Assembly: GCA_903913285.1 (NCBI GenBank) | Contig: CAIWKO010000036.1 | Location: 78,691-142,690 of the forward strand | Source of the DNA: an uncultured Bacteroidales bacterium | GTDB lineage: Bacteria; Bacteroidota; Bacteroidia; Bacteroidales; CAIWKO01 | Direction of reading: 5' to 3' | Length of the DNA: 64,000 nucleotides | Part shown: piece by piece, positions 4,150 to 31,104 of the stretch | How positions within the stretch are numbered: position 1 is the first letter of the stretch | How the letters are laid out: each line of letters starts with the position of its first letter | Made by a program: the position numbers and the translations under genes | The notes under the pieces: generated by a model | What the model was told of the DNA's origin: nothing | Databases searched by the model: none | The model's input: only the letters and a program-made list of their open reading frames with translations

Positions 4150-4150
4150 T

Positions 4151-6618: not shown

Positions 6619-6623
6619 GTTTT

Positions 6624-6938: not shown

Positions 6939-6974
6939 TTATTTGTAACTAAGGCTTGTTTTGATTTTGTAGGA

Positions 6975-6982: not shown

Positions 6983-7085
6983 TTAATAATTGGGAAATTC
7001 GTAAAAGGGTTGAAAACGTATGAACCGCTGATTAAGTCGATTATTGTAATTAAAATGATTTTAAGGAAGGCAGATATTTTTAGAA

Positions 7086-7118: not shown

Positions 7119-7140
7119 TAACTTTCTGCTCTATATCTAT

Positions 7141-7566: not shown

Positions 7567-7636
7567 TGATTGTTTGATTAAAATTTATAAAAAGATTAAG
7601 ATAGCAGCTTATAAACTAAGCGCGCGTGTGATAAAA

Positions 7637-8032
7637 TCAAACAAATTTAGGAGGGTGAAAAATTTTGTTAACGTAACCGGAAGGTTGAAAATGAAAAGTA
7701 CCAATAGGTGTTTTTTCAACAAGCGGTTCATAGTATATTGCCGAAAAAACGAAATAAGTAACGAAGGAAATGTTTTGCTGTCCCTGGTTATGGTTTTGCA
7801 AAGGTTGATGTGGTTTTTGTTCGTCGCCATTTTTGTGGTTATCGAACATGCAATCGATGTTTATGAGGTGATCGGTAATGAAGTCGATAGGGGTCATATC
7901 TTTGTCCTCGGTAGCTTTGCAATGCCGATACATTTCGGGGAGCATGGCCAATTGAGAAAAGTCGCCTACAGGTAAAATTAATGTTCCTAAGGAATAGAAG
8001 GATAAGAATAATATGTAAAGTGTTATTTTCAG
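7637..8032 (-). CDS. Small exported or membrane protein with a non-ATG start
   Basis: The minus-strand frame is open from 8074 to the stop at 7637, with no ATG before the region that looks coded. Reading from a CTG at 8032 gives an N-terminal hydrophobic leader (KITLYILFLSFYSLGTLILP) and then a His/Asp-rich body (TPIDFITDHLINIDCMFDNH, QKPHQPLQNHNQGQQ). The composition and leader resemble a small conserved Bacteroidota protein of unknown function that sits near metal and TonB genes. An ATT at 8047 or a TTG at 7951 are the other possible starts; the latter would lose the leader. A TACCTTTG -7 box at 8050-8057 (minus strand) puts the transcript start near 8043, supporting a start at 8032 or below. 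About 131 residues. Confidence 0.6.
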   Translation of the reverse strand: MKITLYILFLSFYSLGTLILPVGDFSQLAMLPEMYRHCKATEDKDMTPIDFITDHLINIDCMFDNHKNGDEQKPHQPLQNHNQGQQNISFVTYFVFSAIYYEPLVEKTPIGTFHFQPSGYVNKIFHPPKFV

Positions 8033-8049
8033 AAAGAGATATTTAATAA

Positions 8050-8057
8050 CAAAGGTA
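8050..8057 (-). promoter_or_regulatory. -7 promoter box for the non-ATG-start gene
   Basis: The minus strand reads TACCTTTG, an exact TAnnTTTG match, 18 bases before the proposed CTG start. It implies a very short leader. Confidence 0.45.
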
Positions 8058-8198
8058 ACGTAATTTTTTGAAAACTATTGTGATAATAGATAAAAGGGTG
8101 TAACCATTGAGGAAAAATGAGTGAGTTGGGATTAGGATTATTGAATTGATTCAGGTAAGCGCCAAAAAGAATATTCAGACCCAGGTTGGAATCTCAGT

Positions 8199-9053
8199 CT
8201 ATTGAAGAGGATCTTTCGAAATTGTGCGTTGTTTGTTTGTTTTAACTATTCCCCAAATAATGAAACCTATTCCTAAAATAATAAATGGAATGCTTAGTAA
8301 TTGTCCCATATCAAGTTTCATTTGCTCTTCAAAAGGAACTTGTTTTTCCTTAATAAATTCGATAATGAACCGGGCAGCGAAAATCAGTGTAATTGCTAAT
8401 CCAAAAAAGAATCCATTTTGGAGTTTTTCCCGTTTGGTTTTGTATAAATAGAAAATCAAACCGAAAATAAATAAATACGCAATGGCTTCATAAAGTTGTG
8501 CAGGATGTCGAGGGATATTATCGACTTTTACAAAAATAAAAGACCAGGGAACATTTGAAGGAATTCCAATTATTTCAGAGTTCATTAAGTTGGCCAGCCT
8601 GATAAAACATCCGCCCAAAGGTGCAACAACCGCGATGAGATCAATTGTTTTAATAAATGATTCTTTTGTTTTTATTGAATAAAATATCAATGCCAGTATT
8701 AAACCGAAAGTGCCACCATGACTTGCCAGTCCCTTATAACCTACAAATGCATATCCACCATCTTCTTTGAGTTGAATTGGTATAAATATTTCTAATGGAT
8801 GACTCAGAAAATAAGAGGGTTCATAGAACAAACAATGACCCAATCTGGCACCAACAAAAATTCCAATTATCGCATAAATTGTCAAGACATTTAAGTTGGT
8901 AAGTGAAATATTTTCTTTCCGGAAGATCCATTTAAGAATGTAAAAACAGAGTACCAGGCCTCCGACAAATACTACACCGTAATATCTGATTGGAATCCCA
9001 AACAAAGTAAAAATGACGGGGTTGACATTCCAGTGTATAAAGTTTGCAACCAT
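8199..9053 (-). CDS. lgt: Prolipoprotein diacylglyceryl transferase
   Basis: This inner-membrane enzyme moves the diacylglyceryl group of phosphatidylglycerol to the lipobox cysteine of prolipoproteins. The 284 residues hold about seven membrane helices and the family signatures: an Arg-rich motif GARLGHCLFYEP, the SHGGTFG segment, and RHPAQLYEA near the C-terminal third. The order and spacing match Lgt. The length is usual for Bacteroidota. It is flanked by unrelated genes and is a housekeeping gene separating the metal genes from the next divergent promoter region. Confidence 0.96.
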   Translation of the reverse strand: MVANFIHWNVNPVIFTLFGIPIRYYGVVFVGGLVLCFYILKWIFRKENISLTNLNVLTIYAIIGIFVGARLGHCLFYEPSYFLSHPLEIFIPIQLKEDGGYAFVGYKGLASHGGTFGLILALIFYSIKTKESFIKTIDLIAVVAPLGGCFIRLANLMNSEIIGIPSNVPWSFIFVKVDNIPRHPAQLYEAIAYLFIFGLIFYLYKTKREKLQNGFFFGLAITLIFAARFIIEFIKEKQVPFEEQMKLDMGQLLSIPFIILGIGFIIWGIVKTNKQRTISKDPLQ

Positions 9054-9177
9054 ATTAATTATCAGTACCGTAGAAAAGTTTATAAAATGCGTTTGACGTT
9101 AATTTTCCTGTTGCGAAATTACTCATATTTGACAAGCATTTTTTGTTTTTTTGAAATTCGGGAAAATGTTAAATTCC

Positions 9178-9582
9178 TTAGTTGATCAAACTTTCAACCA
9201 TTTCTATCCGAACCGGATTATGATCTTTATCAATAGCAGCAAAAGTAAAACTTGCCTCTACTGCCTTACTTCTGTTATCGCTATCCATATCCTCGGTGAA
9301 TATCTCCACTTCTATTTCAATTTTCGCTTTTCCTGCTTTGGTTACTTTTCCGATAATTTCAGCAAAGGAACCATATTTTATGGGCTTCAGGAATTCCATT
9401 TTTCCACAACAAACTGTGACCATATTCATACGGGTGAAACGGGTAGCAGTGATATAAGCCACTTCGTCCATCCATTGCATAGCTGTGCCACCAAACAATG
9501 TATCATAGTCATTTACGGCATTGTGAAAAATCATTTTAAACTGACGGGTTTCGGTATTCATAATTCGTTCCTGAAGATTCAT
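9178..9582 (-). CDS. Acyl-CoA thioesterase, hotdog fold
   Basis: The sequence has the single-hotdog signature of YciA/BACH-type acyl-CoA hydrolases: DTLFGGTAMQWMDEVAYITA with the conserved Asp on the central helix, then a beta sheet with FLKPIKYGSFAEIIGKV. The expected reaction is hydrolysis of acyl-CoA to free acid and CoA in the cytosol. I chose the ATG at 9582 (135 residues); a TTG at 9600 and an ATG at 9561 are alternatives. The minus-strand box TAAATTTG at 9598-9605 would place the transcript start a few bases before this ATG. It is divergent from the DUF134 gene. Confidence 0.85.
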   Translation of the reverse strand: MNLQERIMNTETRQFKMIFHNAVNDYDTLFGGTAMQWMDEVAYITATRFTRMNMVTVCCGKMEFLKPIKYGSFAEIIGKVTKAGKAKIEIEVEIFTEDMDSDNRSKAVEASFTFAAIDKDHNPVRIEMVESLIN

Positions 9583-9622
9583 AAAAATATTTTTTTGCAA
9601 ATTTATAAAAATTATTGCACAT

Positions 9623-9660
9623 TATGAACAATAGTTCATTACCTTTGCAATGAACTATTG
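9623..9660. promoter_or_regulatory. Perfect 12-bp palindrome over the DUF134 promoter, with a second overlapping palindrome
   Basis: CAATAGTTCATT (9629-9640) and AATGAACTATTG (9649-9660) are perfect inverted repeats flanking an 8-base centre. The -7 box TACCTTTG (9640-9647) sits exactly in the centre. A second inverted repeat, ATGAAC-aata-GTTCAT, occupies 9623-9638 and shares a half-site. The three TGAAC/GTTCA half-sites look like an operator that would block the promoter of the downstream operon. The most obvious candidates to bind it are the DUF134 protein encoded 11 bases downstream or the Crp/Fnr protein at 3454. Confidence 0.7.
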
Positions 9661-9670
9661 CTAATAAAGT

Positions 9671-10267
9671 ATGTCACCCAGACCATTAAGAATAAGAAAG
9701 GTTAGTAATCCTCCGATAATATCAGGGTTGAAACCTTATGGTAATAAATCTGCACATGGCAAAACAGAGGTTGTATTTCTTCAATATGAAGAATACGAAG
9801 CCATACGATTATGTGATTTTGAGATGCTGAATCATCTTGAGGCTTCCGTAAAGATGAATGTTTCAAGACCTACGGTTACAAGAATATACGCCCAAGCAAG
9901 GTATAAAATTGCAGATGCTATAGTGACCGGCAAACAAATAATCATAGAAGGCGGCAAAGTTTATTTTGACAGTGAGTGGTATGTATGTTCATCCTGCGGC
10001 TGTTTTTTCAATCATCCTGAGAAACAAGATACAGTTGCCAACTGTCCTTTATGCGGAAGTAGCCAGATTTCAAATTGTGATCAAATTCCCGATGATTCAA
10101 TTGATACAAAACCACAATGTGATGATGGTTGTATTTGTCTCGCCTGTGGCTATGAAGAAACACATCAGTCAGGGAATCCTTGTGTAAATATAATATGCCC
10201 ACAATGTAATGAACCAATGCGCCGAAAAAACAGTCCACATAGCAGAAAATTTAAAAATGCTTTATAA
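9671..10267 (+). CDS. DUF134 DNA-binding protein with C-terminal zinc ribbons
   Basis: Residues 1-95 match the DUF134 domain: a PRPLRIRKV start, then LQYEEYEAIRLCDFEMLNHLEAS and a helix-turn-helix (MNVSRPTVTRIYAQARYKIADAI). The C-terminal half carries several CxxC pairs (CSSCGCFF, CPLCGS, CLACGY, CPQCNEPM), probably two zinc ribbons or an iron site. DUF134 proteins are often next to NifX-like proteins in anaerobes and are thought to be transcription factors. Its stop overlaps the ATG of the next gene by one base (TAATG), so translation is probably coupled. It is 198 residues long, and is the first gene of the Hdr operon. Confidence 0.88.
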   Translation: MSPRPLRIRKVSNPPIISGLKPYGNKSAHGKTEVVFLQYEEYEAIRLCDFEMLNHLEASVKMNVSRPTVTRIYAQARYKIADAIVTGKQIIIEGGKVYFDSEWYVCSSCGCFFNHPEKQDTVANCPLCGSSQISNCDQIPDDSIDTKPQCDDGCICLACGYEETHQSGNPCVNIICPQCNEPMRRKNSPHSRKFKNAL

Positions 10268-10605
10268 TGAAAGTAGCAATTACCAGTACAGGAAATAGTT
10301 TGGGTAGCCACCTCGACCAACGCTTTGGCAGATGTGACTTTTTCGTTATTTACGACACAGAAACCAAAGCATTGGAATATATCCCAAATCCAAATAAGGA
10401 GGCTCTTGAGGGCGCAGGTCCCGCATCAGTGCAATTAGTTGCCAGCCGAAATGTTAATAAAATAATCTCCGGAGAATTTGGAATTAAAATTAAGTCATTG
10501 CTTGACAGTTTAAAAATTCAGATGATCATTTTTAAAGAACCCGACAAAAAAATAAAAGATATCATTGATATATTAAACAACACATCGCAAACACACAGTA
10601 AATAG
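10267..10605 (+). CDS. NifX/NifB-type Fe-Mo cluster-binding domain protein (first copy)
   Basis: The 112 residues follow the dinitrogenase iron-molybdenum cofactor biosynthesis fold: an MKVAITSTG start, LDQRFGRCDFFVIYD, and a glycine-rich middle. These small cytosolic proteins carry Fe-S or Fe-Mo clusters. No nif structural genes are in the window, so a nitrogenase role is unlikely; cluster delivery or redox sensing for the neighbouring Hdr proteins is an inference. It is coupled to the DUF134 gene and lies 30 bases before a second member of the family. Confidence 0.85.
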   Translation: MKVAITSTGNSLGSHLDQRFGRCDFFVIYDTETKALEYIPNPNKEALEGAGPASVQLVASRNVNKIISGEFGIKIKSLLDSLKIQMIIFKEPDKKIKDIIDILNNTSQTHSK

Positions 10606-10635
10606 TTTTTTAAATTTAAACATGGGGAATCTTTT

Positions 10636-10974
10636 ATGAAAATTGCTATTCCGACAATTGGTGGTATTCTTGATGAATACTTTGAATCTTGTGAAGTTTT
10701 TACAATATTTTCAGTGGATGATTCGTATAACATATTAGATTCTGAAATATTTTATACACCTGAGGGCTGTGATTGTAAAAATAACAAACCACTGATTATG
10801 CAAGAGAAAGGAGTTACATTCATGGTTGCCTATAAAATGCCTTCACATGCAGACGGTGTTTGCGAGAAGCATGGTATTGAAGTTCACCTGGGCTATACAG
10901 GTAATGTTCGTGAAGTAGCTGAAGCTTTTTTACAAAAAAAAGTTAATTTAATAACAGATGAAGCCAGAAAGTAA
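10636..10974 (+). CDS. NifX/NifB-type Fe-Mo cluster-binding domain protein (second copy)
   Basis: Same fold and length as its neighbour (112 residues, MKIAIPTIGG start) but only distantly similar to it. It has cysteines at the CDCKN site in the middle and near the C-terminal third (GVCEKHG), where the first copy has none. The pair may make a heterodimer, or they may bind different clusters. The last 17 bases overlap the start of the HdrC-like gene in another frame, a sign of coupled translation within the operon. Confidence 0.8.
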   Translation: MKIAIPTIGGILDEYFESCEVFTIFSVDDSYNILDSEIFYTPEGCDCKNNKPLIMQEKGVTFMVAYKMPSHADGVCEKHGIEVHLGYTGNVREVAEAFLQKKVNLITDEARK

Positions 10975-19072: not shown

Positions 19073-19354
19073 ATGATTGAAGAAAAAACTAAGATAATAC
19101 CTATCCAGCTTCCGGTTATCGATTATTCGCTTTGCACGCAATGCAAAATTTGCATTGAGGTATGCCCCAGCGTTGTTATTTCAGATCCCGTGAGTTTCAC
19201 TTGCGGCAAATGTGTAAAATATTGTATCACTATGGAAGTGCCCTGCTCCCCCGACCAATTTGTTTTTAACTATGAGGTTTGCGATAGTTGCGGCATATGC
19301 ATAGAACATTGCCCCACAAAAGCGATGTATTGGCATAAAGTGGCTCAAAAATAG
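19073..19354 (+). CDS. Ferredoxin-like protein with an extra cysteine motif
   Basis: The 93 residues have two standard ferredoxin motifs at C21, C24, C27, C31 and C70, C73, C76, C80. Between them is a third cysteine set, C44, C47, C51, C58 (TCGKCVKYC), in place of the usual short linker. It could ligate a third cluster or a zinc. The protein is cytosolic by appearance, with no leader. It begins 13 bases after the MbnP-like gene, so an electron-transfer role linked to copper or to the Hdr system is likely. It closes the + strand gene run. Confidence 0.82.
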   Translation: MIEEKTKIIPIQLPVIDYSLCTQCKICIEVCPSVVISDPVSFTCGKCVKYCITMEVPCSPDQFVFNYEVCDSCGICIEHCPTKAMYWHKVAQK

Positions 19355-19371: not shown

Positions 19372-19722
19372 CTATAAGGATAGAAGTTGGAAAGGGTTGG
19401 TAATTGTATCCCTTCCGAAAACCTTTAACAAAGAAACAGCATCTTTACGATTGATATTAGCTGTAGTGATCTTTTTTTCGTGAAATGGCTGATTAAGATT
19501 AGGAATACGTGCGGCGAAGAAAGGCCATAACTGATCACTCTGATATTTCTTTTCGACATCAGGGAAATCAATAATAGGAGTAATCGGTTTTTGTGATTTG
19601 AATTCTGTAGAATACTCAAAATACCAATTGCCCTGCTCAAAACGAAGTATTCCGATGATTAATTTTTTATAAGTCAACTGAAAAGCCCCCATGGAATTGA
19701 CGGGAGTATCTAATTTGTTCAC
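19372..19722 (-). CDS. Stand-alone HipA N-terminal-domain-like protein
   Basis: The 116 residues match the N-terminal subdomain of HipA in order and spacing: a WYFEYSTEF strand, P-rich loops, LWPFFAARIPN and a closing FGRDTITNPFQLL segment (compare IGRDSVGA in E. coli HipA). The kinase part is absent, so it cannot phosphorylate substrates. It is the last gene of a four-gene minus-strand operon with a toxin, an antitoxin and a SecB-like chaperone, 41 bases downstream of the chaperone. It may help the complex contact DNA or a partner, or be a leftover of a hip module. Its role is inference. Confidence 0.7.
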   Translation of the reverse strand: MNKLDTPVNSMGAFQLTYKKLIIGILRFEQGNWYFEYSTEFKSQKPITPIIDFPDVEKKYQSDQLWPFFAARIPNLNQPFHEKKITTANINRKDAVSLLKVFGRDTITNPFQLLSL

Positions 19723-19763
19723 AACCGATAAATTAAAAGAAAATGAAAATATTATTTTAGGAA

Positions 19764-20213
19764 TTACTTTTTATGAAGTAATACGTTTTTATCTTTTATA
19801 AATGCATTAAGATCAACTGCAGGAAGAACATATTTCCCAAAAGGATAATAAGCAGTAGTATTGATTAAATAGGATCTGACATGACTGATAAGAATAGGTA
19901 AAGCAGCACGAACCAGCAAACCATCAATGTGCTCTTTTTGCATGCTCTCTAATCCGACAATGTGAAAAATGCCTTCGGATGCTACAGAAAATGAATAGCC
20001 AGGTTTCAATACTTTAGAAATATTCCCGGATATTGAAAGAAAAACTTTAAAAGTTGATTTATCTTTAGAATTGGTCCGTATATTAAAATCAGCATCTAAG
20101 TCGATATTATCTAAAGAAACAAATTTTGTTTCAGGAGTAGTTGGTACAATCACAATGTTACTGGCAACGATCAATAACTTATCGATTGTCAATTCTGACC
20201 TTTTAATTTGCAT
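19764..20213 (-). CDS. SecB-like chaperone of a toxin-antitoxin-chaperone system
   Basis: SecB folds show a beta sheet followed by a long helix, then a short C-terminal helix. Here the middle (FSVASEGIFHIVG) and the C-terminal half (LPILISHVRSYLINTTAYYPFGKYVLPAVDLNAFI) match the family pattern of LFPYARE and PPLxLPPINF-type segments. The 149 residues fit. In the TAC systems of Mycobacterium tuberculosis and of E. coli CmdTAC, such a chaperone protects the antitoxin. The gene lies 11 bases after the antitoxin gene, as in those systems. It would work in the cytosol as a tetramer. A general Sec export role is unlikely in this context. Confidence 0.75.
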   Translation of the reverse strand: MQIKRSELTIDKLLIVASNIVIVPTTPETKFVSLDNIDLDADFNIRTNSKDKSTFKVFLSISGNISKVLKPGYSFSVASEGIFHIVGLESMQKEHIDGLLVRAALPILISHVRSYLINTTAYYPFGKYVLPAVDLNAFIKDKNVLLHKK

Positions 20214-20224
20214 AATAAATGATT

Positions 20225-20680
20225 TTAAAGACCATTAACGGAGGAATAATCAGCAACTGAAGATAGCTTGTAATCTTTATCACCTTTTTCTTTTTTACTG
20301 AAATCATATAATTGTATGATTTTAGCTTCAGGCAATTTATATTCCTTGATTTCCTCAAATTCCATATCAGGCCAATAACTAAAATCGACAGAAAAATTAA
20401 CATTAAATATACGCTGTAATTTTGCAAGAATCTTATAGTTAATAAGTTTATCAGCAGTGAAAAGCTGGGTAATAAAACTGGGAGAAGTCTGAAGTTCCAC
20501 AGCTAATTCCTTTTTATTCATTTTTTTCTCCTGCATTAATTTTTCAACCATTTTCATGGTATTTAAATGGAGCATTTCGGCTTCAAATTGAAGCTTCTCC
20601 TCATCAGAATTGAATTTAAGGACAGATTGCAAAATAGAATCCAATTCATCAATTTTGGGTGCAACTTGTTTAGAATTCAT
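20225..20680 (-). CDS. HigA-like XRE antitoxin with chaperone-addiction tail
   Basis: Residues 55-105 form a helix-turn-helix of the Cro/CI type (NKKELAVELQTSPSFITQLFTADKLINYKILAKLQRIF). The N-terminal 50 residues are helical. The tail after residue 115 (FEEIKEYKLPEAKIIQLYDF) is hydrophobic and would fit the chaperone-addiction segment known in TAC antitoxins, which needs the SecB-like protein to fold. It overlaps the toxin gene by 11 bases. It is likely to repress its own operon by binding the repeat at 21153. The family call is firm; the tail role is inference. Confidence 0.82.
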   Translation of the reverse strand: MNSKQVAPKIDELDSILQSVLKFNSDEEKLQFEAEMLHLNTMKMVEKLMQEKKMNKKELAVELQTSPSFITQLFTADKLINYKILAKLQRIFNVNFSVDFSYWPDMEFEEIKEYKLPEAKIIQLYDFSKKEKGDKDYKLSSVADYSSVNGL

Positions 20681-21080
20681 ATTCGTAAGCTTTAATTTTT
20701 TCGATTATAGATATTATACCGGGATCATCCTGGTTTTTTTCAACTTTTTTGAAATATGGAGATACCATAACAATCTTTTTGCCGTCAATAAAAATCTCTT
20801 TACAATAAATGCGGGCATTATTAGATTTTCTGCCAAGAAATTTCATAGCTGTGACGTGTGTGTCTTCTATTTTGTAAAGATTTTCGTGGTACTCATTTTT
20901 TAATATGATGTACAAAATACGTTTGAACTTATCGTTAAAAGGAGAAATAATATCATGCACCAGCATTTTACATTGCTTTTCGTCCTCAATGTCATAAAAA
21001 ACTCTGACTGTAGAGTTCGAAAGCTCAGGAAATTCCTTTTTAAAATTGTCCAAACCATATTCTCTACATTTTCTTTTCAC
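20670..21080 (-). CDS. RelE/HigB-like toxin of the TAC system
   Basis: The 136 residues end with the pattern of RelE/HigB mRNA interferases: strands with NARIYCKEIFIDGKKIVMV, then PYFKKVEKN and a final helix. The basic residues in the strands and KK motif fit the ribosome-binding face. It is the first gene of the operon, with an antitoxin directly after it, an order typical of the higBA type. It would cut mRNA on the ribosome to stop growth. Similarity is visible only at the C-terminus; the N-terminal 60 residues are unusual, so another toxin fold is possible. Confidence 0.68.
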   Translation of the reverse strand: MKRKCREYGLDNFKKEFPELSNSTVRVFYDIEDEKQCKMLVHDIISPFNDKFKRILYIILKNEYHENLYKIEDTHVTAMKFLGRKSNNARIYCKEIFIDGKKIVMVSPYFKKVEKNQDDPGIISIIEKIKAYEYEF

Positions 21081-21410: not shown

Positions 21411-21833
21411 TTAAAAGGTAAGTACGATCTTGCTTTTCCTAATCATATTATACAGGTCGGCCATGGATGAGAATTTACAAACCTGAGGCTGATCTATCTT
21501 GCGGCTTTGCAAACAAGTGCCGCAACCTAGTATTGAAGTGGTGCCACCTTCGAGAAATGACTCGGTTTGTTCTTTTATGTTTTCGTCGGATTTCACGAGA
21601 AAATCAACTTCAACACCTTTGCCAAGAAGAAATATGCTAACAGTATCGCCCTGGGTTTTGGAGTAATTTGCAAAACGCATGGCATTCCAAACGGTTTCTA
21701 CATCGTTGGAATAGATAACGATTCCGACACTGGTGGGTTTGTAGGCGGTTGTCGCAGAGCCACCACATTGTGCGTAAATGCTGAGTGAAAATAAACTACA
21801 CAAGAATGTCAGAATTAAAAATGATTTTTTCAT
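21411..21833 (-). CDS. Exported DsrE-family sulfur-carrier protein
   Basis: A signal peptide (MKKSFLILTFLCSLFSLSIYAQ) is followed by a DsrE-like fold (VGIVIYSNDVETVWNAMRFANYSKTQGD, then VSIFLLGKGV). The cysteines at 104 and 107 (LGCGTCLQSR) sit where the family carries persulfide sulfur. DsrE proteins transfer sulfur during oxidation or reduction of sulfur compounds; most are cytosolic, so an exported form is of interest. It is alone on the minus strand between the TAC operon and a restriction enzyme gene. It may belong to the sulfur genes of the left part of the window. Confidence 0.85.
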   Translation of the reverse strand: MKKSFLILTFLCSLFSLSIYAQCGGSATTAYKPTSVGIVIYSNDVETVWNAMRFANYSKTQGDTVSIFLLGKGVEVDFLVKSDENIKEQTESFLEGGTTSILGCGTCLQSRKIDQPQVCKFSSMADLYNMIRKSKIVLTF

Positions 21834-21866: not shown

Positions 21867-24800
21867 TTATGTTCCTTCCACAATTTTTACTTCTTGGTCT
21901 GTTAATCCATAAAGCTCATAAACCATGTTATCAATCTTTTTGTCGGTTTTATCGATTTCGGATTTCAGGGCCAGGGCTTTTTGTTTGTTTTCGTTGAACA
22001 GGTCGATCCATTCGAATTCGTCTTTTTTGGAGAGGGCATTGCCTTTGGCTGTTTTGATGGCTTTGTTGAGTTCGGATATAAAGGCCGGGAATTCCAGATC
22101 GTACCAATTTTCTAATTTGCCGGAGAGAATAGTTAGTTTGTATTGACCAGAAAAGAATGATGAGAACTTATTTGACAGAGCTTGCAATTCTTTATTTAAG
22201 GAAAGCATGATATCTGCTTTTTCGATGAAAGCAGATTGATTAATAGGAATTTTAATAGGTAATCTTTCAATAAATACAACTTTTACTTCTGCAAGCGGTT
22301 TTCCAATCATGTGAAAATTTTGAAACTGAAAAAACCAATTTATTAGTTTGGAATTAAGTATAGATAGCAAAAATTTTAATGAAATAGCATCATTTATAGA
22401 TCGTAAACAGTGGATTGAATTTAAACCAATAATTTTTGTATCATCATAAACTGACAATATTTTATCATCAGTTCTGCGGATAAATATTTTGGGCTTGTAA
22501 AAAGAGTCAGGGTTTCTTGGGGCTGCTAAGCAATCACCATATTTTATGTATTCGCCATCCCATACTAACAAATACCTATTAACCTGTGTGCCCCTAATTA
22601 ATTTTAACCAATCATCACCTCTTTTTTCGAATGAAGTGTATGGTTTTTTTTCAACTATTTCATCAGTTTGTAATGGATTTCCCTTATTCTTTTCATAAGG
22701 TTTCACACCAGCAGTTACTTTTGTAATATCCCCGAATTTCTGTGCATTTTTACAAATTTTCTTTGATAACTTGATATTCTGCTCTGATGCACGATAGTTA
22801 AAAATCAGATCATCTCTCTCAAATAATTCAGAATAAGGGAAATTTAATACATTGCAGTTATTTACATCAATTTGAGATAGCACAATACCTCTTTGTTGCA
22901 AAAAACACAAAACAGAGTCATCTGATTTTGGGAATTCTTTTGAAAGTACTGTGGTTATTGGTTCAACAACTGCATCTTGAAAGACATTAAATGTTTCCAG
23001 AAATGATACAATTCTACAGTTTCTGAATAATAATTTTCTAAGTTCAACCCCATTCTCAATTACTAAATAAGTATTAGGAGTTATAAAACCCAAGTAGCCC
23101 GAAGCTTTCAATATTTGGTAAGACTTTTCAAAAAACAATCCATAGCTATCATAATTAGGAAACCTGGTTTTATAAAAATTATTATAAAACGATTTTTCTG
23201 AATTACTGATTTTTGCACCATAAGGTGGATTACCAATAATGATATCAAAACCACCCCGAGCGAAAACTTCCGGGAATTCGTTGGGCCAATTAAAAGCCTT
23301 ATCGCCAGCAATGGCAGGATCGTCGATGAGGGAGTTGCCGCATTTGATGTTGTTGTTGAGAGAGGTGAGTTTACGGCCACGCTGGGCAGTTCGCAACCAC
23401 AAAGAAAGACGGGCAATTTCGACGCTTTCGTCGTTGATATCGACACCGAAAATATTCTTTTCGAGGATGTGGTTTTCAACATCCGGAAAAATGAAAGAAC
23501 TGCCCAGCAATTGCGCCTGCAGTTCATCAAGATATTGATGTTCTTCAATTAAAAACTCCAGGGCCTGATTGAGAAAAGCACCACTGCCACATGCCGGATC
23601 GCAAATGGTTATGTTCAGCAACCATTGGCGGTAGGCCTGTAATTGTTCATCAAGCTTTAGCAGGGTTTCCTTTTTGCGGTTCTTACGGCCTTTGGCATAT
23701 TCTTCGTCGATGATGCCATGTTCTGCCTTTTTTTCTTCGCATAATTTGCCGAGGGTGTTTTCGACAATGTATTTGGTGATATAGCGAGGGGTATAGAAAA
23801 TACCGTCTTTCTTACGTTTGCTTTTACTTTTATCTGTTTCCTGACCTTCGATCTGCGCTTTTACGTTTTCAATCTCACTAAGACTGTTCTCGAAAATGTG
23901 GCCCAAAATATTAACATCGACCTCGCTTTGGAAATCGTAAGCGGATAGCTTCATGGTATGCGTTTGCAATACCAGATCATCAATGCGAATGGTGTCGAGA
24001 ATTTCGTCAGGGAGAAACAAACCACCGTTGAATTCAAAGATATCATCGTTTGTTGTTTTGCCTTTACGGCCGGTGTTGATATATCCGAAAAACTGTCTGA
24101 AAATGTCGTAGAGCGGTTTGTAGGCATCTTCATCCTTTAGCACCTGCCAGCGTTCGACCATGCGGGAAATGGAATTGGGAGGCAGCAAACCGCTGTCTTC
24201 GGCAAAGAATACGAAGAGGAAACGGTCGAGCAGTTTTTGAGTTTTGCGAAAAAGTATTAACTGGTCGACCTGTGGGTTATTCAGAACCATGTTTTGCCAA
24301 AGGTCCGTGCGGAAACTGGCGTAATCCCTGTAAAGGTATTTGGTAATGTTTTCTTCCTCAATTGAGCTTTCTTCCTTGATCTTTGCCGGAATGCCTTTTA
24401 ACAGTGATTCGGCAGCAAGGCAAAGCCACAGCAGTTGAAATTCGTTTTCGGTCAGGGTGAACAGGTTGAATTCAAGATGATCGACAGAGTTATGAATGAA
24501 AAAGCGAAGTTTTTCGAAATTTGATGTGACAACATAAACGCAGTCGGGCTGGTTGTTCTTGTAATTGAAAGCCTGGCCACTGATCTTGTCCAGATCCCTT
24601 GTTTCGGTTCCTTTCAGTTCGACAACAGCCAGGGCTTTTCTGTCCTGAAGTATGGCCCCATCTGCTTTTTTTGCCCCGGTGAGGTTTTTAAATTCTGTTG
24701 TGAGGTTAAAGGCCGGTTCGGGATTGATGACATAACCAAGGATATTTACGAATAGTTCGCGCAGGAAGCCTTCCTGAAACTGTTCTTCTTTGGCATCGCG

Positions 24801-24923
24801 GATGTTGTTCTGAATTTCGGGGTTGTGGAAATAGGTTGTAAACTTTTTATAGGATTGCTGAACCATTGCTGGATTCAGAGTTTTAAGATACTTGTTTAGG
24901 ACAGCGTTTTGGAAGAATGACAT
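21867..24923 (-). CDS. Type IIG restriction-modification enzyme (Eco57I-like)
   Basis: One polypeptide holds the nuclease and methylase. The N-terminal PD-(D/E)XK site is visible as D97, E111, K113 (GAKKADGAI, VVELKG; numbered from 24950). Residues 450-590 carry an adenine methylase with motif I (CDPACGSGAFLNQ) and motif IV (GNPPYG). The last 400 residues form a TaqI-like specificity part. About 1,018 residues from the ATG at 24923; the start at 24950 adds nine residues. It would cut unmodified DNA and methylate adenine in the host. It lies between the TAC genes and an integrative element, as expected in a defence island. Confidence 0.88.
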   Translation of the reverse strand: MSFFQNAVLNKYLKTLNPAMVQQSYKKFTTYFHNPEIQNNIRDAKEEQFQEGFLRELFVNILGYVINPEPAFNLTTEFKNLTGAKKADGAILQDRKALAVVELKGTETRDLDKISGQAFNYKNNQPDCVYVVTSNFEKLRFFIHNSVDHLEFNLFTLTENEFQLLWLCLAAESLLKGIPAKIKEESSIEEENITKYLYRDYASFRTDLWQNMVLNNPQVDQLILFRKTQKLLDRFLFVFFAEDSGLLPPNSISRMVERWQVLKDEDAYKPLYDIFRQFFGYINTGRKGKTTNDDIFEFNGGLFLPDEILDTIRIDDLVLQTHTMKLSAYDFQSEVDVNILGHIFENSLSEIENVKAQIEGQETDKSKSKRKKDGIFYTPRYITKYIVENTLGKLCEEKKAEHGIIDEEYAKGRKNRKKETLLKLDEQLQAYRQWLLNITICDPACGSGAFLNQALEFLIEEHQYLDELQAQLLGSSFIFPDVENHILEKNIFGVDINDESVEIARLSLWLRTAQRGRKLTSLNNNIKCGNSLIDDPAIAGDKAFNWPNEFPEVFARGGFDIIIGNPPYGAKISNSEKSFYNNFYKTRFPNYDSYGLFFEKSYQILKASGYLGFITPNTYLVIENGVELRKLLFRNCRIVSFLETFNVFQDAVVEPITTVLSKEFPKSDDSVLCFLQQRGIVLSQIDVNNCNVLNFPYSELFERDDLIFNYRASEQNIKLSKKICKNAQKFGDITKVTAGVKPYEKNKGNPLQTDEIVEKKPYTSFEKRGDDWLKLIRGTQVNRYLLVWDGEYIKYGDCLAAPRNPDSFYKPKIFIRRTDDKILSVYDDTKIIGLNSIHCLRSINDAISLKFLLSILNSKLINWFFQFQNFHMIGKPLAEVKVVFIERLPIKIPINQSAFIEKADIMLSLNKELQALSNKFSSFFSGQYKLTILSGKLENWYDLEFPAFISELNKAIKTAKGNALSKKDEFEWIDLFNENKQKALALKSEIDKTDKKIDNMVYELYGLTDQEVKIVEGT

Positions 24924-25240
24924 AGATGATTTTACTGTTTCCGGATGCAAGAAAAATTAGGAAGTATAAAAATAGAAATTATTTGAGAATGGTGATGAGA
25001 AAAAAGAAACAGGATAAAAATTCAAACTGCAAAAAAAAAGTGTTCTTATAATTTTTCTAAATTTGATTTTAAGGTTACCCACCCTACCCATAATTGATGT
25101 ATGGCAGACCTGACAATAATTTCAAGATGGGTAAGGATGAATTCTTGGGCAAGGTTAAAAAAACATTACCCGCAATGAAATGCCCATCCAATGAAGGGAG
25201 TAAAGCCAACGGGTAAGGAGGGTAATGTTTTTTTCTGTTT
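24924..25240. other. Non-coding region with TTACCC/GGGTAA motifs and a long inverted repeat
   Basis: The gap between the restriction gene and the primase-helicase gene holds six TTACCC-like or GGGTAA motifs: 25075-25080, 25084-25089, 25129-25134, 25166-25171, 25211-25216 and 25220-25225. Some lie in the 15-bp inverted repeat listed separately. The motif density next to a VapE primase suggests an origin of replication or a regulatory region of the mobile element. Confidence 0.5.
25157..25234. repeat. Perfect 15-bp inverted repeat with 48-base loop
   Basis: The arms at 25157-25171 and 25220-25234 are exact reverse complements: seven A then CATTACCC, and GGGTAATG then seven T. It is seven bases past the stop codon of the primase-helicase gene. 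It may terminate transcription from the minus strand or be the structured core of an origin. Confidence 0.7.
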
Positions 25241-27313
25241 CTAAGAATTTTTATATCGAATGTAATATCCATATTTGCGGTCGGTCCCGACCTTTTCACG
25301 AGTAAATCCTAATGATTTCAATCCTTTACCAATGTTATTTACGTTCATGTGGACATGATTCTCCGTAGCTTCGTTTAGATAAATCAAGATATCAGTTGCT
25401 GTCATAAATTTATCATTGTTATCCGTAGTGCCAGGCTCCAGATATTTATCGATCAGTTCCCGTTCGGAAGTGGTCAACTGAAACTGGTGGTTGTATTCCT
25501 CGTTTTCTTTGATGTCTTCGGGAGTGAGTTCGCAAGGGAAGTTGGCTTTGAAAAGATGATATGCCTGTGCCCAAACGTTATCAATATTTATCTCTTTGCT
25601 ATAAGCCCAATCAATACCTTCAATCGCAAAACAAAGCCAACGGACAGAGCCGGATTCGTCGTTAAGAAATTCGACCTGATTTGTGGAACCGATAAAAGAA
25701 GCCCGGCGCGGAATGATGGAATTTTTACGATCGTAGGGCAGGCGGTCATTAATCTTATCTTTTGAGAAAAGCGATTTCAATGAGCTTATTTCCACTTTTG
25801 AAAGGGTTGAAAGTTCGTCGAGATTTATCAGAAGGTTGGTGGTTAACAGGATGCGGCTGTCTTTATCTATTGATAAATTCTCGGCAATGTAATTTGAAAG
25901 CCGTGGAGGGCAAAGAAAACGGCAGAATGTAGATTTGCCGGAATTCTGTTTGTCGTGTACCAGAATAAATGCCTGTTTGTTGAAAAATCTATCGACTATG
26001 GCGCATTTGACAGCCCTAACGAGCCATTTCTTAAAATGGTTGTCGAACCTGTTGCGAACTTCGGGTTTGAGTTTTACATAAGCTGCCAGCTCGCTGATAT
26101 GATCGGTGTAACCATCCCATGGCGGAAGCGATTCGAAATATTGAATGAAAGGGTTGTAATGAGGAATTAAATCGGATTTGAGGATTGCCATGAGGTTGTT
26201 GAGTGTGAACATTAAGCCGTCGAGAGACATTTTGACAAAAATATTGTTCTCGTTCAAAACTGTATATTCGTCCTGGTCTTTTTCCCGGTATTCAAATTGA
26301 GTTGAAACGGTGTTGTAACGGATGTCGAAATTTTCGCTGAGGTAATCACGGACCAAATGAAATTTATTTGTTTTTCTCTTTGGAAGTTTAACAGGAATTT
26401 CATTTGAAGATTGCTGATCGTTGTTGGAGGTGGCCTCACTCCTATCTTTACTATTAAGTTTGTCAGGATAATAGGCAGGGTTATTTGAAATCCTTATTCC
26501 GTAGTCTTTGGCAAAACCAAAGAATGTGCGGATGGTTATTCCTGAGTTATTTGATCTCAGGCACTTGTCGTACTGATCATCACATTTTTGCGCATTGTAA
26601 GCCGAATAGAACTTACTTACGCGGTGGAAATAGTCGCGGCCACCCTCACCCAATGCATCAGAAAGGGCAAAACCTATGTGCAGCCAGTCTTTATAATCTG
26701 AGGTAATGTCAATATGATTGGTCTCTATTTGTTGTAGTACATTTTCAATGTCTTGTTCAAGCATATTTAAAGATGTTTTGAAAATTTCAGAATAAGAGTT
26801 TAAAAACAGATCCTCATCGAATGAGTAAAAGCAGAGGCGGGTAATGTCGCTGCCTGAAACATCGATAGGAACGTTTAACAAGGTTTTGTAATATTCCTTT
26901 ACCTGATTGAAAGCCTGTTTGTGATGCTGGGGTTTGCTATCGACCTTAACCAGTATTTTCAGACCATTTTTACCAGGGCTTATAAAACAGGAATAGGTGA
27001 AAGGAATATCAATTGCTGTGGATTTAGCTTTTGCAAGCTGTTCGGGAGTTAAATCATCAATATCTAAAATAATACACGAAGAATATTGATTTAGATTTGC
27101 AAGGATTCTCCGGTCGTTGAACGTTGCCGAAGGTGTGAAAGCTGGCAATAACTTTTTTCTCAGTTTGTATTCATCAATTTTACCTTGCATTTTTAATGAG
27201 CGAAGATCTTCGACCTGGCTTTTATACCTGCCATCCCTGATCTGACCAAGGACGACAGGCAAGGCCAAGTCTTCGGAAACCTGGTTAAGGTTTTTAATCA
27301 CTGACACCAGCAT
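25241..27313 (-). CDS. Primase-helicase of a mobile element (BT4734-like, PriCT_2, VapE domains)
   Basis: Three parts are visible in 690 residues. Residues 1-165 match the BT4734/BF3469-type archaeo-eukaryotic primase-like domain (SSCIILDIDDL, ISPGKNGLKILVKV). Residues 185-265 match PriCT_2 (DYKDWLHIGFALSDALGEGG). Residues 380-600 form a VapE-type helicase with Walker A (DKQNSGKSTFC), then NLDELSTLS and the segment around FIGSTNQVEFLND. Such proteins start replication of phage satellites and integrative elements. The start is four bases after the stop of the excisionase-like gene. It anchors the element ending at the integrase. Confidence 0.85.
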   Translation of the reverse strand: MLVSVIKNLNQVSEDLALPVVLGQIRDGRYKSQVEDLRSLKMQGKIDEYKLRKKLLPAFTPSATFNDRRILANLNQYSSCIILDIDDLTPEQLAKAKSTAIDIPFTYSCFISPGKNGLKILVKVDSKPQHHKQAFNQVKEYYKTLLNVPIDVSGSDITRLCFYSFDEDLFLNSYSEIFKTSLNMLEQDIENVLQQIETNHIDITSDYKDWLHIGFALSDALGEGGRDYFHRVSKFYSAYNAQKCDDQYDKCLRSNNSGITIRTFFGFAKDYGIRISNNPAYYPDKLNSKDRSEATSNNDQQSSNEIPVKLPKRKTNKFHLVRDYLSENFDIRYNTVSTQFEYREKDQDEYTVLNENNIFVKMSLDGLMFTLNNLMAILKSDLIPHYNPFIQYFESLPPWDGYTDHISELAAYVKLKPEVRNRFDNHFKKWLVRAVKCAIVDRFFNKQAFILVHDKQNSGKSTFCRFLCPPRLSNYIAENLSIDKDSRILLTTNLLINLDELSTLSKVEISSLKSLFSKDKINDRLPYDRKNSIIPRRASFIGSTNQVEFLNDESGSVRWLCFAIEGIDWAYSKEINIDNVWAQAYHLFKANFPCELTPEDIKENEEYNHQFQLTTSERELIDKYLEPGTTDNNDKFMTATDILIYLNEATENHVHMNVNNIGKGLKSLGFTREKVGTDRKYGYYIRYKNS

Positions 27314-27317
27314 ACAT

Positions 27318-27608
27318 TTACTTTTTAAGGTTAAATGCTTTTACATAGTGGCGGTTTAAGTGCTCTTCAATATCAGTTGCTTTAAAATAAATCTTACCGC
27401 CTATTTGACTGAATGGGATAGTACCATTGTCGCGGTATGATTGCAGGGTGCGTTTTGAGATCTTCAACAACAAACATACATCCTGTATGTCGAGCCATTT
27501 GTCAGATAATGGGTGTTGATTGTTTGCACGGTCGATCTTTTTACTTATTTCAGAAATATCGTTTGTGATTTTCTGAAAAGCTTCGGAGGTGATAGTTATT
27601 ACTTCCAT
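27318..27608 (-). CDS. Excisionase-like helix-turn-helix protein (MerR/HTH_17 type)
   Basis: A helix-turn-helix of the DNA-binding HTH_17 kind is seen (WLDIQDVCLLLKISKRTLQSYRDNGTIPFSQIGGKIYFKATDIEEHL), typical of excisionases and small regulators on Bacteroidota mobile elements. I start it at the ATG 27608, giving 96 residues; a longer frame upstream is a non-homologous stretch with repeats. It precedes the primase-helicase gene by four bases, suggesting one transcript. It may regulate excision or replication of the element. Confidence 0.82.
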   Translation of the reverse strand: MEVITITSEAFQKITNDISEISKKIDRANNQHPLSDKWLDIQDVCLLLKISKRTLQSYRDNGTIPFSQIGGKIYFKATDIEEHLNRHYVKAFNLKK

Positions 27609-27718
27609 TTTCTTTATGTTTTTAAATTTTACAATAAATGATTTGATGTTTTTTTGTCGACGAAAAACATTACAAAGAAAATACTGAAAAAGCCTGTAAA
27701 TTGACGCCATCGGGAACC

Positions 27719-27828
27719 GTAGAGTGAAGTGCAGAGTGTAGAGTGTTCTAAAAGCACTGATAGATGGGCATTTCAATCGAAGCCCAAAGGACAAAATATT
27801 TGTAAAAAAATGGTGTAGAGTAGAGTGT
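27719..27828 (-). repeat. Degenerate tandem ACACTCTAC-type repeats
   Basis: The minus strand reads several ACTCTAC units around 27719-27750 and 27813-27828. They lie between the excisionase-like gene and a large unknown gene. A copy of the 12-base ACACTCTACTCT is also found in the other orientation at 33795-33806 in the decayed region. Confidence 0.4.
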
Positions 27829-29873
27829 TATTTCAAATGATCAACAGCTTTTTCTATTAAATCTGCTTTGGCAGGGTGTTTTTGCCCTCTGAATTTATTT
27901 TTGTCAAAAGGGTTGCCATTAATATCGACAAAAAGATTTGCTGTAATTTTCCAAATATTAGCATTTAGATTGCTTATAAGATTGAAATCGTTGTGAAGCA
28001 ATTTAATAAAATAAGCAAGTTCAGAAAAATTGCCAGACCAGATTATGGGTTTCAATGGAGCAGTATTGTTGAATATCTTGCGGAATTCTTTTTTATCTGT
28101 ACCTTCCGGAAGGAGCTTAATTTTGATCAAAGAAGTCATCAAATCTGTTATTGCTGAAAGATTGCTTTTGTACTTGATGTATGTATACGCAACAGGGATT
28201 ATCTTTTTTGGTTTTGATACTGATGCCGGATCCAGTTTTTGAACTTGGCTATTATCCGGGACCGGCAGATTACTTATAAAGTTTTCAAGTTTATTGATAT
28301 AATGTCCTGAAATGAGGAAAATGAAATCAGAATGAAGGTCAATGACTTTATAATCGACACCTTTTTGCTTAAGCTGAGGAAATGTGTAATTAAAGTAGCC
28401 TGGAAATGTATCATGGGAAATTCCCTGCACCTTAATTTGATTCTCAAATACATCCTCTAATGTGAGTTTGTGTTTCTTCAGATAATATTCTGCATTGTCC
28501 GGAGTTCCGGCAATATATTGGCTTGATTTGTCTTTAATATGGCTTAAATACGATTTAATAATAAGATCCCTATCAGAAGGATTTACTTTTGCATAAAAAA
28601 TTTGGAATTCAGGTTCAAGCTCTATCTGGAGGTTTTTTAAAAAATTGTAAAAGCCCCTGCAGGACCAATCGGATTTGTATTTATCAGACGGGTTTGCCTT
28701 TCTTAGAAAATTTTCAACAGAAGGCTCAAAACTTGCTTTCATTTTTTCAGAAATTTCATTGATACCAGTAGAAAGGCTAAAATCCTCGTATTGTTTTTGT
28801 GATTCATTACTTTTCAGATAGATATCCTTTAATAGATGAAGCCACTTTTCAGCTAACCGAGGAAGGGAATTGATTTTTATATCATCAGGCATTTTTTGAT
28901 GTACCAAATAATTTTCGTTTTTTCTTAGCAGGGAGTCAACGAAATCAATTCTATCAATGTGGTTATGAATTTCTGAGAGTTTTCTTTTATTGTCATCTTT
29001 GAAAAATTTAAGCATAGAAGAATTGAAAGAATCTAAAACAAAGATATTGTAGTCGTTTAACTGAGAATTTAGCGCATGAGTATTAACAAATATGTAATTT
29101 TCAAGGGCAATAACATTTTGGGTGAATGTATGGTCAAAGTCCGCGTCACCGGAGACTGAATTTTTCAAATTTGAAAAATTATTGAAGACTTTAATATTTG
29201 TATTCAACAAATGGCACGTTTTCTTGTAATCGTAATTTTTCTCATTTAAAAATCTTCTTGTTTCTACAAAATACATTTTTATTGAATCGTACTTACTTCT
29301 TACTATTGGAGCAGGCTCGCGAAAATGTTGACTATAAATATCATTAATATTTTCTAATCGTTTTGAGGAAATATAAGCAGCATAAGTCTTTTGAACATGC
29401 AAGGATAATTCAATCAAATATTCGTTGAAATAGTACAAAATATCTCTAATGGCACATTTTTTCTTGTACTTATTATCCAGGTTAATCATTCTAACATAGC
29501 GAGCTTCAAATTCCTCACCAAAGTCCCGTTTTTTTAGATTGACTTTATTCATTAACAACAACAGTCTATCGTACTGTTTTGTAATATAGAATGAGAAGTC
29601 TTCTCGCTTTTCACTTGAAGCGAGAACATGATCAAATACATTAACAAGTCGATTGCATTCCCTTTTTATAGTTCCAATATAGTATATTGCAATTCTGCTT
29701 TCGGTCTGAATATTACTGATGTTTATTATTTTATCGAAAGATTCATCTTTTAACTCCCGGGGCGAATCTTCTTTGAAGTATTGCTCGAAATTACGGTCAT
29801 AGGTATTCTCGGGGATAGTGGGATTCATTTCACCTTCCAGAATGTTATAAAAAAGTGAGTAATCTTCAGCCAT
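27828..29873 (-). CDS. Large unknown protein of the mobile element
   Basis: The 681 residues are rich in Asn, Lys, Phe and Tyr and have no signal peptide, membrane segment or recognised motif. Predicted by eye to be largely alpha-helical (long runs such as YNIFVLDSFNSSMLKFF). The C-terminal 60 residues end in a stretch matching the style of RteC-like helper proteins, but not enough to call. It lies between the integrase and the excisionase-like gene on the same strand, so it is element-borne. Possible functions include a mobilisation helper or a defence payload. I do not recognise the family. Confidence 0.65.
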   Translation of the reverse strand: MAEDYSLFYNILEGEMNPTIPENTYDRNFEQYFKEDSPRELKDESFDKIINISNIQTESRIAIYYIGTIKRECNRLVNVFDHVLASSEKREDFSFYITKQYDRLLLLMNKVNLKKRDFGEEFEARYVRMINLDNKYKKKCAIRDILYYFNEYLIELSLHVQKTYAAYISSKRLENINDIYSQHFREPAPIVRSKYDSIKMYFVETRRFLNEKNYDYKKTCHLLNTNIKVFNNFSNLKNSVSGDADFDHTFTQNVIALENYIFVNTHALNSQLNDYNIFVLDSFNSSMLKFFKDDNKRKLSEIHNHIDRIDFVDSLLRKNENYLVHQKMPDDIKINSLPRLAEKWLHLLKDIYLKSNESQKQYEDFSLSTGINEISEKMKASFEPSVENFLRKANPSDKYKSDWSCRGFYNFLKNLQIELEPEFQIFYAKVNPSDRDLIIKSYLSHIKDKSSQYIAGTPDNAEYYLKKHKLTLEDVFENQIKVQGISHDTFPGYFNYTFPQLKQKGVDYKVIDLHSDFIFLISGHYINKLENFISNLPVPDNSQVQKLDPASVSKPKKIIPVAYTYIKYKSNLSAITDLMTSLIKIKLLPEGTDKKEFRKIFNNTAPLKPIIWSGNFSELAYFIKLLHNDFNLISNLNANIWKITANLFVDINGNPFDKNKFRGQKHPAKADLIEKAVDHLK

Positions 29874-29895
29874 AGCGAAAAATTAGAATCCAAAT

Positions 29896-31104
29896 TTAAG
29901 AATTAAATACATCCATTGCCTTATCAAGTTCATCATTTACGATTTTTGCATAGACCTGAGTTGTTTTGATGGATGAATGGCCCATAAGCTTTGAAACATA
30001 TTCAATGCGCATTCCTTTGCGAAGTGCACGGGTAGCCCATGTATGACGGCTGGTATGAAAATGTAAATTGTGATTGATTTCTGCAAGCTTTGCAAGATCC
30101 TTTAAATCCGTATTAGTGTATGCCGTGAGTGATGAAATAGCGCGGAATAAAACTTTAGGATTTGAGTAATCGATATCATTTTTTAGGAATGGAAAAACAA
30201 AATCGGCCGGCTTGCAATTTTCATTTTTATAGAGGTTCATAATTTCAATGGCCTTGGCCGGCAATTTTATTGAAATTACGGCTCCGGTTTTCTGAGTTGT
30301 GAGAAGTACCCTCTCCCCATCATAATTTTCCCACTTTAACTGAAAAATATCAGAAATTCTCATTCCCCCTACGTATGCCGCATATACATATATATTTCTA
30401 TGGTGATATTTCTTTGAACCTTCAACCAGTGGTAATTTTTCGAGAATTTCAAGCTCATCCTCAGATAAGAATTCCTTTGTTGTATTTTCCCACTTCAGCT
30501 TATAGCGAAGGAATGGGTTTTTCTCAATTGGCATTAACTCGTCATTTATTGCATCATTAATGATACGACGGATTACTTTTAAATTGCTATAAATTGTATT
30601 CGGGCTGTTGTGTAATTCGGTCCGGAGGTATTCTTCATATTGTTTAAGGAAATATACAGTGAGATCATCGAAAGTGAAATCCTGATTGCCAATGAAGGTC
30701 TTTAGCTTAGAAATAACAGCGTTTGCTTTATCATGAGTGCCAATCTTACCCTTTGATTCAATTGATGCCAGGAACCGTTCAGCATAAGGAATAAACTGTT
30801 CAGTAGTTTTTCCCATGACAGCCTGTTTGATGCTTTTAGGCGAAACAAATTTTGATTTTGTTTCCATCTCAAGACTGACGTCTCGGGCCTCGGCAATTTT
30901 ATGAGCCAAAAAATTATTAAGCCGGTTTGAATTTGGATGAGATTTCCGGACTACCTGGTCTTCATCATTCCAGAATTTAGGATCGATAGTTTGACCAAGG
31001 GAAATGAATTTTGCTTTTCTGTCTTTGATTATTCTCAAATAAAGTGGAGCTTCTCCTTTTTTATTTGCTTTTTCAGTTTTAAGAATTATCTTTGTTGTTG
31101 CCAT
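29896..31104 (-). CDS. Tyrosine recombinase (integrase) of the mobile element
   Basis: An N-terminal arm-binding domain (ATTKIILKTEKANKKGEAPLYLRII) leads to a SAM-like core-binding domain (about 105-210), then the catalytic domain. The catalytic residues are seen as GGMRISDIFQLKW (Arg), HTSRHTWATRALRKG (His, Arg) and LMGHSSIKTTQVYAKI (His and Tyr nucleophile). The 402 residues are typical of Bacteroidota integrases. It is the outermost gene of the element, transcribed inward, with a promoter at 31121-31150. Sites that it may use are at 31276-31293 and 31348-31368. Confidence 0.95.
   Translation of the reverse strand: MATTKIILKTEKANKKGEAPLYLRIIKDRKAKFISLGQTIDPKFWNDEDQVVRKSHPNSNRLNNFLAHKIAEARDVSLEMETKSKFVSPKSIKQAVMGKTTEQFIPYAERFLASIESKGKIGTHDKANAVISKLKTFIGNQDFTFDDLTVYFLKQYEEYLRTELHNSPNTIYSNLKVIRRIINDAINDELMPIEKNPFLRYKLKWENTTKEFLSEDELEILEKLPLVEGSKKYHHRNIYVYAAYVGGMRISDIFQLKWENYDGERVLLTTQKTGAVISIKLPAKAIEIMNLYKNENCKPADFVFPFLKNDIDYSNPKVLFRAISSLTAYTNTDLKDLAKLAEINHNLHFHTSRHTWATRALRKGMRIEYVSKLMGHSSIKTTQVYAKIVNDELDKAMDVFNS

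Follow-up and report, generated by a model that had tools for sequence, protein, structure and literature searches.

Introduction

The toxin-antitoxin-chaperone (TAC) modules of Mycobacterium tuberculosis and Escherichia coli, together with the Hip systems hipJS and HipBST, are the closest described counterparts of a four-gene locus that we analyzed in a 64-kb stretch (64,000 nucleotides; hereafter "the window") of contig CAIWKO010000036.1 from an uncultured Bacteroidales bacterium. The M. tuberculosis TAC (HigB1-HigA1-SecB(TA), Rv1955-Rv1957) resembles the first three genes of the locus in combining a HigB-fold toxin, an XRE-type antitoxin with a C-terminal extension and a SecB-like chaperone, and its genes stand in the same order. 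The two differ in that PDB sequence searches reveal no similarity between the toxins, in the antitoxin C-terminus (Val-Ala in M. tuberculosis, Gly-Leu in the window), and in the extra hipS gene that the window carries behind the trio. The anti-phage system CmdTAC of E. coli likewise comprises a toxin, an antitoxin and a SecB-like chaperone. CmdT is an mRNA ADP-ribosyltransferase, whereas the window's toxin has a predicted HigB-like fold (no search aimed at an ADP-ribosyltransferase match was made), and CmdA ends in LAA rather than Gly-Leu (PMC11618068).

The fourth gene (gene 4) points to a different group of systems. In hipJS (PMC8262856; close to the PADLOC candidate PDC-M03), the HipS family to which gene 4 belongs follows HipJ-like kinases; the window lacks both the kinase gene and the N-terminal leader. 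The PDC-M03B models span 232-262 positions, and may represent HipS-HIRAN proteins, whereas gene 4 is shorter. HipBST of E. coli and Legionella also includes a stand-alone HipA N-subdomain 1 protein, yet there hipS comes before the kinase gene, and the E. coli HipS inhibits its kinase through Trp65 (PMC10627512), while the branch to which the window protein belongs lacks the tryptophan and normally follows the kinase.

Here we find, with a probability that we put at roughly 70%, that genes 1-3 form a conserved TAC-type module with a predicted HigB-fold toxin, and that gene 4 is a kinase-less HipS, likely a hipJS passenger and not a working part of the TAC.

Results

A conserved three-gene module with a sequence-novel toxin

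An initial annotation, made from the sequence alone, described four minus-strand genes with overlaps or short gaps. All four open reading frames (ORFs) are present: toxin and antitoxin genes overlap by 11 nucleotides (nt), 11 nt separate the antitoxin gene from the SecB-like gene, and 41 nt separate the latter from gene 4 (Table 1). The assignments proposed for the four products, namely a RelE/HigB-like toxin, an XRE antitoxin, a SecB-like protein and a 116-residue protein matching the HipA N-terminus, are all supported, as detailed below.

Searches with the toxin sequence against Pfam, NCBIfam, PADLOC and the PDB returned nothing meaningful (sub-threshold matches in Pfam, the best at E 0.024; ribosomal protein L35 at E 0.9 as the best PDB rows), and the toxin is therefore placed by fold alone. 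Structure prediction and comparison give a HigB/RelE fold, with the model aligning to 7nbu. By this model, the toxin belongs to a sequence-novel HigB-like branch and, as in TAC operons, a predicted known toxin fold comes first. The antitoxin matches Pfam HTH_3 at 25.5 bits (cut-off 23). The third protein scores 23.7 bits against Pfam SecB (E 4.9e-5), just below the cut-off of 26; its SecB fold is backed by structure prediction and comparison, the model aligning to 5mtw. A profile of this protein matches E. coli SecB at E 0.0015, and the same profile also pulls in an adhesin at E 0.0064; a single-sequence phmmer search against the PDB gave no match. In the window, a chaperone of predicted SecB fold thus directly follows the antitoxin.

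We found the toxin in 25 named loci and in 7 of 395 genomes of the phylum, the window's genome counted. Adding two further loci and removing duplicates left 32 loci with a recognizable antitoxin, and in 22 of these, the window included, a SecB-like gene lies directly downstream (absent from this position in the other 10). The three-gene neighborhood is therefore conserved, and it recurs in Bacteroidota, Chlorobiota, Ignavibacteriota and one Spirochaetales record, among others. A set of 395 class genomes drawn later yielded nine more toxin loci, of which one (L133) has SecB and eight do not, as scored by threshold; among these eight is L136, scored as SecB-less although its third gene may encode a highly diverged SecB (3.3 bits). 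SecB presence requires 7 changes on the best toxin tree (7 across the 5-95% bootstrap range), and well-supported branches alone force 3. Because the predicted folds coincide with a conserved trio, the models support reading genes 1-3 as a TAC-type module, a new branch member of an already known kind of TAC. What the module adds is a branch of HigB-type TACs, mainly from Bacteroidota, with a toxin that Pfam misses.

Some relatives carry other genes around the pair. The third gene of L136 (540-1019), which follows the toxin-antitoxin pair and resembles a very divergent SecB-like protein, has no Pfam match above cut-off. In chaperone-less relatives, a third gene of about 129 codons is found at L137 2224-2610 and L139 2398-2787, and perhaps L138 637-1026; two of these three proteins match DUF6941 weakly, under the curated cut-off, and they are possible alternative third components. 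Two loci (L023 2464-3378; L002 176-1333) have two genes behind the SecB-like gene which by appearance only are of STAS type and histidine-kinase-type ATPase.

Antitoxin C-termini track the chaperone

The window's antitoxin has a 55-residue C-terminal tail past the HTH match, ending in Val-Asn-Gly-Leu. In described systems, the end of this protein matters for its turnover: ClpP degrades CmdA, whose LAA end resembles those of antitoxins from other TACs already described (PMC11618068), and the Val-Ala end of HigA1 is read by ClpX and lies inside the chaperone-binding tail (PMC8165232). Across the 32-locus set, 16 of 22 antitoxins encoded beside SecB end in Ala and 19 of 22 in Ala or Gly, against none of the 10 without SecB. 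The later set shows the same pattern, with an Ala end in the single antitoxin accompanied by SecB (L133) and neither Ala nor Gly in the eight that lack it. Pooled, Ala/Gly ends occur in 20/23 loci with SecB and 0/18 without (Fisher 7.5e-9, a value that assumes independent loci, which they are not). The later set alone gives a Fisher value of 0.11 and, with one TAC only, mainly tests the SecB-absent side. Supported branches of the toxin tree provide 3 independent pairs, of which a mean of 2.7 agree and 0 oppose, too few for significance.

Several loci were left out of this count: L029 and L032 as duplicates; L002, L005 and L006, which have a SecB-like gene and no toxin of the family noted in their short stretches; and L038, whose toxin fragment is sub-threshold and whose antitoxin ends in Asn, with no SecB seen. 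Three Lutibacter loci are near copies. The exceptions on the SecB side are the window (Gly-Leu), L012 (Asp) and L028 (Gln). The Ala/Gly ends that track SecB match the ClpX degrons of PMC8165232 and PMC11618068, and the distribution fits a family in which chaperone and ClpX-type degron would come and go together; the aliphatic Leu end of the window's antitoxin would then possibly be a weaker degron. Since the family offers many natural cases with and without a chaperone, and the last antitoxin residue tracks it, one can test directly whether chaperone addiction is linked to a ClpX-type degron.

Gene 4 belongs to a family that mostly accompanies kinases

Gene 4 scores 35.8 bits against Pfam Couple_hipA (PF13657; cut-off 22.5) and 51.1 bits against PADLOC PDC-M03B, covering only 95 of 245 model positions, and it is 51% identical to the HipS of genome G054. 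When the profile was built from the close family by itself, it reached HipS entries in the PDB at only E 0.23-0.83; a mixed profile that included split-hipA members matched Legionella HipS (7vkb) at E 2.7e-13. By sequence, gene 4 is a stand-alone HipS of the hipJS-module family.

The company kept by this family differs from that in the window. With the window counted each time, gene 4 has matches in 7 of 59 related genomes, in 19 of 395 genomes of the phylum and in 36 of 395 genomes of the class. Most of these matches are distant HipA-N proteins (E > 1e-11), and most of those examined in the first two sets are split-hipA pairs. We defined the close HipS family by E < 1e-18, which gives 13 loci besides the window. 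In nine of them (G054, G108, G472, G198, G777, G672, G683, G526 and G506), the HipS gene is immediately preceded, on the same strand, by a G054-like kinase gene, which is split in G526. The kinases of G054, G108, G472 and G198 were profile-tested and match PF07804 and PDC-M03A; the rest were recognized because phmmer or BLAST found them similar to the kinase of G054. Of the remaining loci, G409 retains only a kinase fragment, G113 has an Apea-HEPN protein in the kinase's place (PF18739, 36.8 bits; cut-off 24.4), and G667 and G545 have solitary HipS genes (L126 7676-8080 and L129 9984-10370, respectively), with no kinase in the stretches covered. A HipS gene after a HipJ kinase gene is the organization of hipJS (PMC8262856), and from this gene order we infer that the upstream kinases are HipJ proper.

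Both of the two viral contigs from IMG/VR carry kinase and HipS (L130 4926-6339; L131 2713-4126), and the pairs lie near apparent phage structural genes, as judged from ORFs. hipJS thus probably travels on phages. Searches of phage and plasmid collections did not turn up gene 4 itself. A profile of the HipS family gave 1082 matches in a large protein set, 120 of them listed.

Beside gene 4 there is neither a HipJ-like kinase nor any A-type gene of the kind that PDC-M03 pairs with its B component: secB lies upstream, and a convergent ferredoxin gene downstream. The initial annotation had suggested that gene 4 may make this a new type of TAC, and had looked to conserved synteny of HipA-N with SecB-like genes. 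We sought such a TAC-hipS neighborhood across the TAC loci and did not find it: gene 4 stands beside a TAC in 1 of 22, the window alone, and the L133 TAC lacks it in the stretch covered. This count reflects what is visible, as the L010 record stops inside secB and several loci reach just 1-2 kb past the antitoxin. The absence of a conserved neighborhood, which the annotation itself had named as grounds for giving up the idea, thus holds for gene 4, and its closest relatives stand mostly behind HipJ-like kinases. Since 1/22 TACs has gene 4 while 9/13 family loci have the kinase, synteny argues against gene 4 as a TAC partner.

Among CC-licensed PubMed Central papers, we found none describing a TAC with a HipA-N gene, and the name PDC-M03 was not found there. 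One paper contains both "SecB-like" and "HipA N-terminal" (PMC6581861); in its excerpt, the M. tuberculosis TAC is mentioned merely as another three-gene module.

The hipS junction and effector exchange

Among the matches listed, the closest relative of gene 4 is P0044 (89% identity, 130 aa), which has about 14 N-terminal residues ahead of a Met that aligns with the window's GTG; gene 4 lacks this leader. The codons of the 41 nt between the secB stop and this GTG are unrelated to the HipS family, and HipS similarity therefore starts at the GTG, just at the end of the TAC part.

Two genomes of one genus, G108 and G113, show what can happen at such a position. The two sequences align along the type IIG gene as far as its stop, save for a stretch of about 240 nt near the 3' end, lose alignment across the gene that follows (kinase in G108, Apea-HEPN in G113), and match again from 17 and 8 nt inside hipS. 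The flanks are collinear, interrupted by repeats and small insertions. Thus hipS can persist when the gene for its effector is exchanged. Estimates of dN/dS (NG86) between G108 and G113 are 0.33 for hipS, close to the 0.31 of the restriction-modification gene and far above the values for two flanking genes (0.03 and 0.09); the phage hipS pair gives 0.07. These values show that hipS in G108 and G113 is under some constraint, while dN/dS cannot tell its function after the swap. That HipS of a kinase-partner family persists after a swap to a HEPN-type effector raises the question of its role in such operons.

The window may be a third kind of hipS neighbor (a TAC), parallel to G108 and G113. The parallel is suggestive at most, because a DsrE gene and 330 nt part the type IIG gene from the toxin gene. 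The genes upstream in G113 and G198 are placed in type IIG by PADLOC. A type IIG gene upstream was considered as a rule for the family and rejected, since it occurs in just 3 of 13 loci (G108, G113 and G198), with G108 and G113 of one origin. DsrE genes near hipS in the window and in G108 (39% identity) were not used as a sign of a shared island, as none similar turned up beside the G113 hipS; DsrE genes are common.

Discussion

Taking M. tuberculosis HigBA1-SecB(TA) and CmdTAC as models, we suggest that the SecB-like protein would hold the C-terminal tail of the antitoxin, which would then fold, cover the toxin and escape Clp proteolysis. Phage or unfolded proteins occupying the chaperone would lead to degradation of the antitoxin, and the freed HigB-like toxin would cleave mRNA on ribosomes, halting protein synthesis and growth. 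The TAC, or DNA carrying it, likely landed where a HipJ kinase gene stood, the breakpoint falling within the 5' end of hipS. The gene 4 protein, if still made, would most likely have no effect on the TAC and would at most blunt incoming HipJ kinases. A passenger is the most economical reading of gene 4.

Several observations weigh against this picture. The antitoxin stops in Gly-Leu and lacks an Ala end. Gene 4 has an unbroken reading frame a short distance after secB, and could be functional. The replaced kinase is a reconstruction: no intermediate or empty site was found, three same-genus genomes showing no synteny. Finally, the window's genome encodes two other Hip kinases, on contig C16, one set being split into XRE, HipA-N and kinase (three genes) and the other consisting of XRE plus a fused 430-aa HipA, and gene 4 could possibly act in trans on one of these. 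The C16 kinases score 27.2 and 21.1 bits against PDC-M03A, versus 75-118 for true HipJ-like kinases; each has its own HipA-N part, and these parts have no phmmer match to gene 4. Speaking for the picture, a close relative of the G054 kinase was not found in this genome, which is 97% complete (best E 0.155).

In a four-component TAC, the HipS-like protein would be a working accessory that binds one of the other three products (toxin, antitoxin or chaperone) and adjusts how the module works. The close spacing on one strand, the intact HipA-N domain, and the 89% identity to full-length P0044, with no decay beyond the leader, are what such a gene would show; with the leader absent, one TAC in 22 carrying the gene, and a close family found mostly with kinases, we regard this as unlikely. 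Slightly less likely still is a modular defense operon in which HipS is the constant last subunit, sensing or restraining an exchangeable upstream effector (HipJ kinase, Apea-HEPN RNase, or the window's HigB-type TAC) between a type IIG gene and hipS.

The solitary HipS may instead have been retained, independently of the TAC, to block HipJ kinases that mobile elements bring in. HipJ-bearing elements do circulate, since hipJS pairs sit on two viral contigs, and HipS is also solitary in G667 and G545. These are just 2 of 13 loci, however, and kinase binding may suffer from loss of the leader. In E. coli, HipS inhibits HipT via Trp65, a residue conserved in some HipS proteins and not in all (PMC10627512). 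In the window protein and its branch, the aligned position is not Trp and Glu63 is also absent (a P-E-G-W stretch), so gene 4 does not resemble a HipBST-type HipS here and inhibition is itself an assumption; the C16 kinases would offer a further alternative target. We consider such a role improbable. Least plausible is an ordinary export chaperone to which a toxin-antitoxin pair is merely adjacent, given that in 22/32 pairs the SecB-like gene follows immediately, with gene order unchanged, and that SecB presence requires 7 changes (3 forced) and yet the antitoxin ends track it.

Genomic neighborhood

Table 1. Features of the locus and of loci compared with it (window coordinates unless a locus is named).
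Feature	Coordinates	Strand	Description
Toxin gene	20670..21080	minus	Predicted HigB/RelE fold, 136 aa, GTG start
Antitoxin gene	20225..20680	minus	XRE/Cro-type helix-turn-helix (HTH), 151 aa, HTH at residues 46-96
SecB-like chaperone gene	19764..20213	minus	149 aa
Gene 4, HipS-like (HipA N-subdomain 1)	19372..19722	minus	116 aa, GTG start, hipJS family, kinase-less, ~14-residue leader absent
Junction at gene 4 start	19690..19722	minus	GTG at the position of a family-internal Met; HipS similarity starts, 41 nt past secB stop
DsrE-like gene	21411-21833	minus	Between toxin and type IIG gene
Type IIG restriction-methyltransferase	21867..24950	minus	Pfam Eco57I, TaqI_C; PADLOC E 2e-299; context, not shown as TAC part
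VapE-type primase gene	25241-27313	minus	
Tyrosine integrase gene	29896-31104	minus	~9 kb from TAC
Ferredoxin gene	19073-19354		Downstream, convergent to gene 4
Exchange loci	L088 (G108) 1-5500; L089 (G113) 6439-10722		Same type IIG and hipS, different gene between
Contig C16 locus L052	2419-4034		Hip kinase set
Contig C16 locus L053	1833-3475		Hip kinase set

The initial annotation had placed the operon next to a type IIG enzyme and an integrase. The first part stands, the type IIG gene being the second gene upstream of the toxin with the DsrE-like gene in between; "next to" is loose for the integrase. With the type IIG gene nearby, a defense neighborhood for the TAC is plausible. ARAGORN found no tRNA in the window, a search for direct repeats delimiting a mobile element gave none that were convincing, and the ends of an element were not found. 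Promoter and terminator scans of the locus were near chance level. A search of the three same-genus genomes for an empty site did not find the locus, only relatives of a lipoprotein (in one genome also of a TonB receptor) or of DsrE. Within the window, the integrase, an HTH_17 protein, the VapE-type primase and the type IIG gene form one same-strand block (21867-31104), probably a small integrative element.
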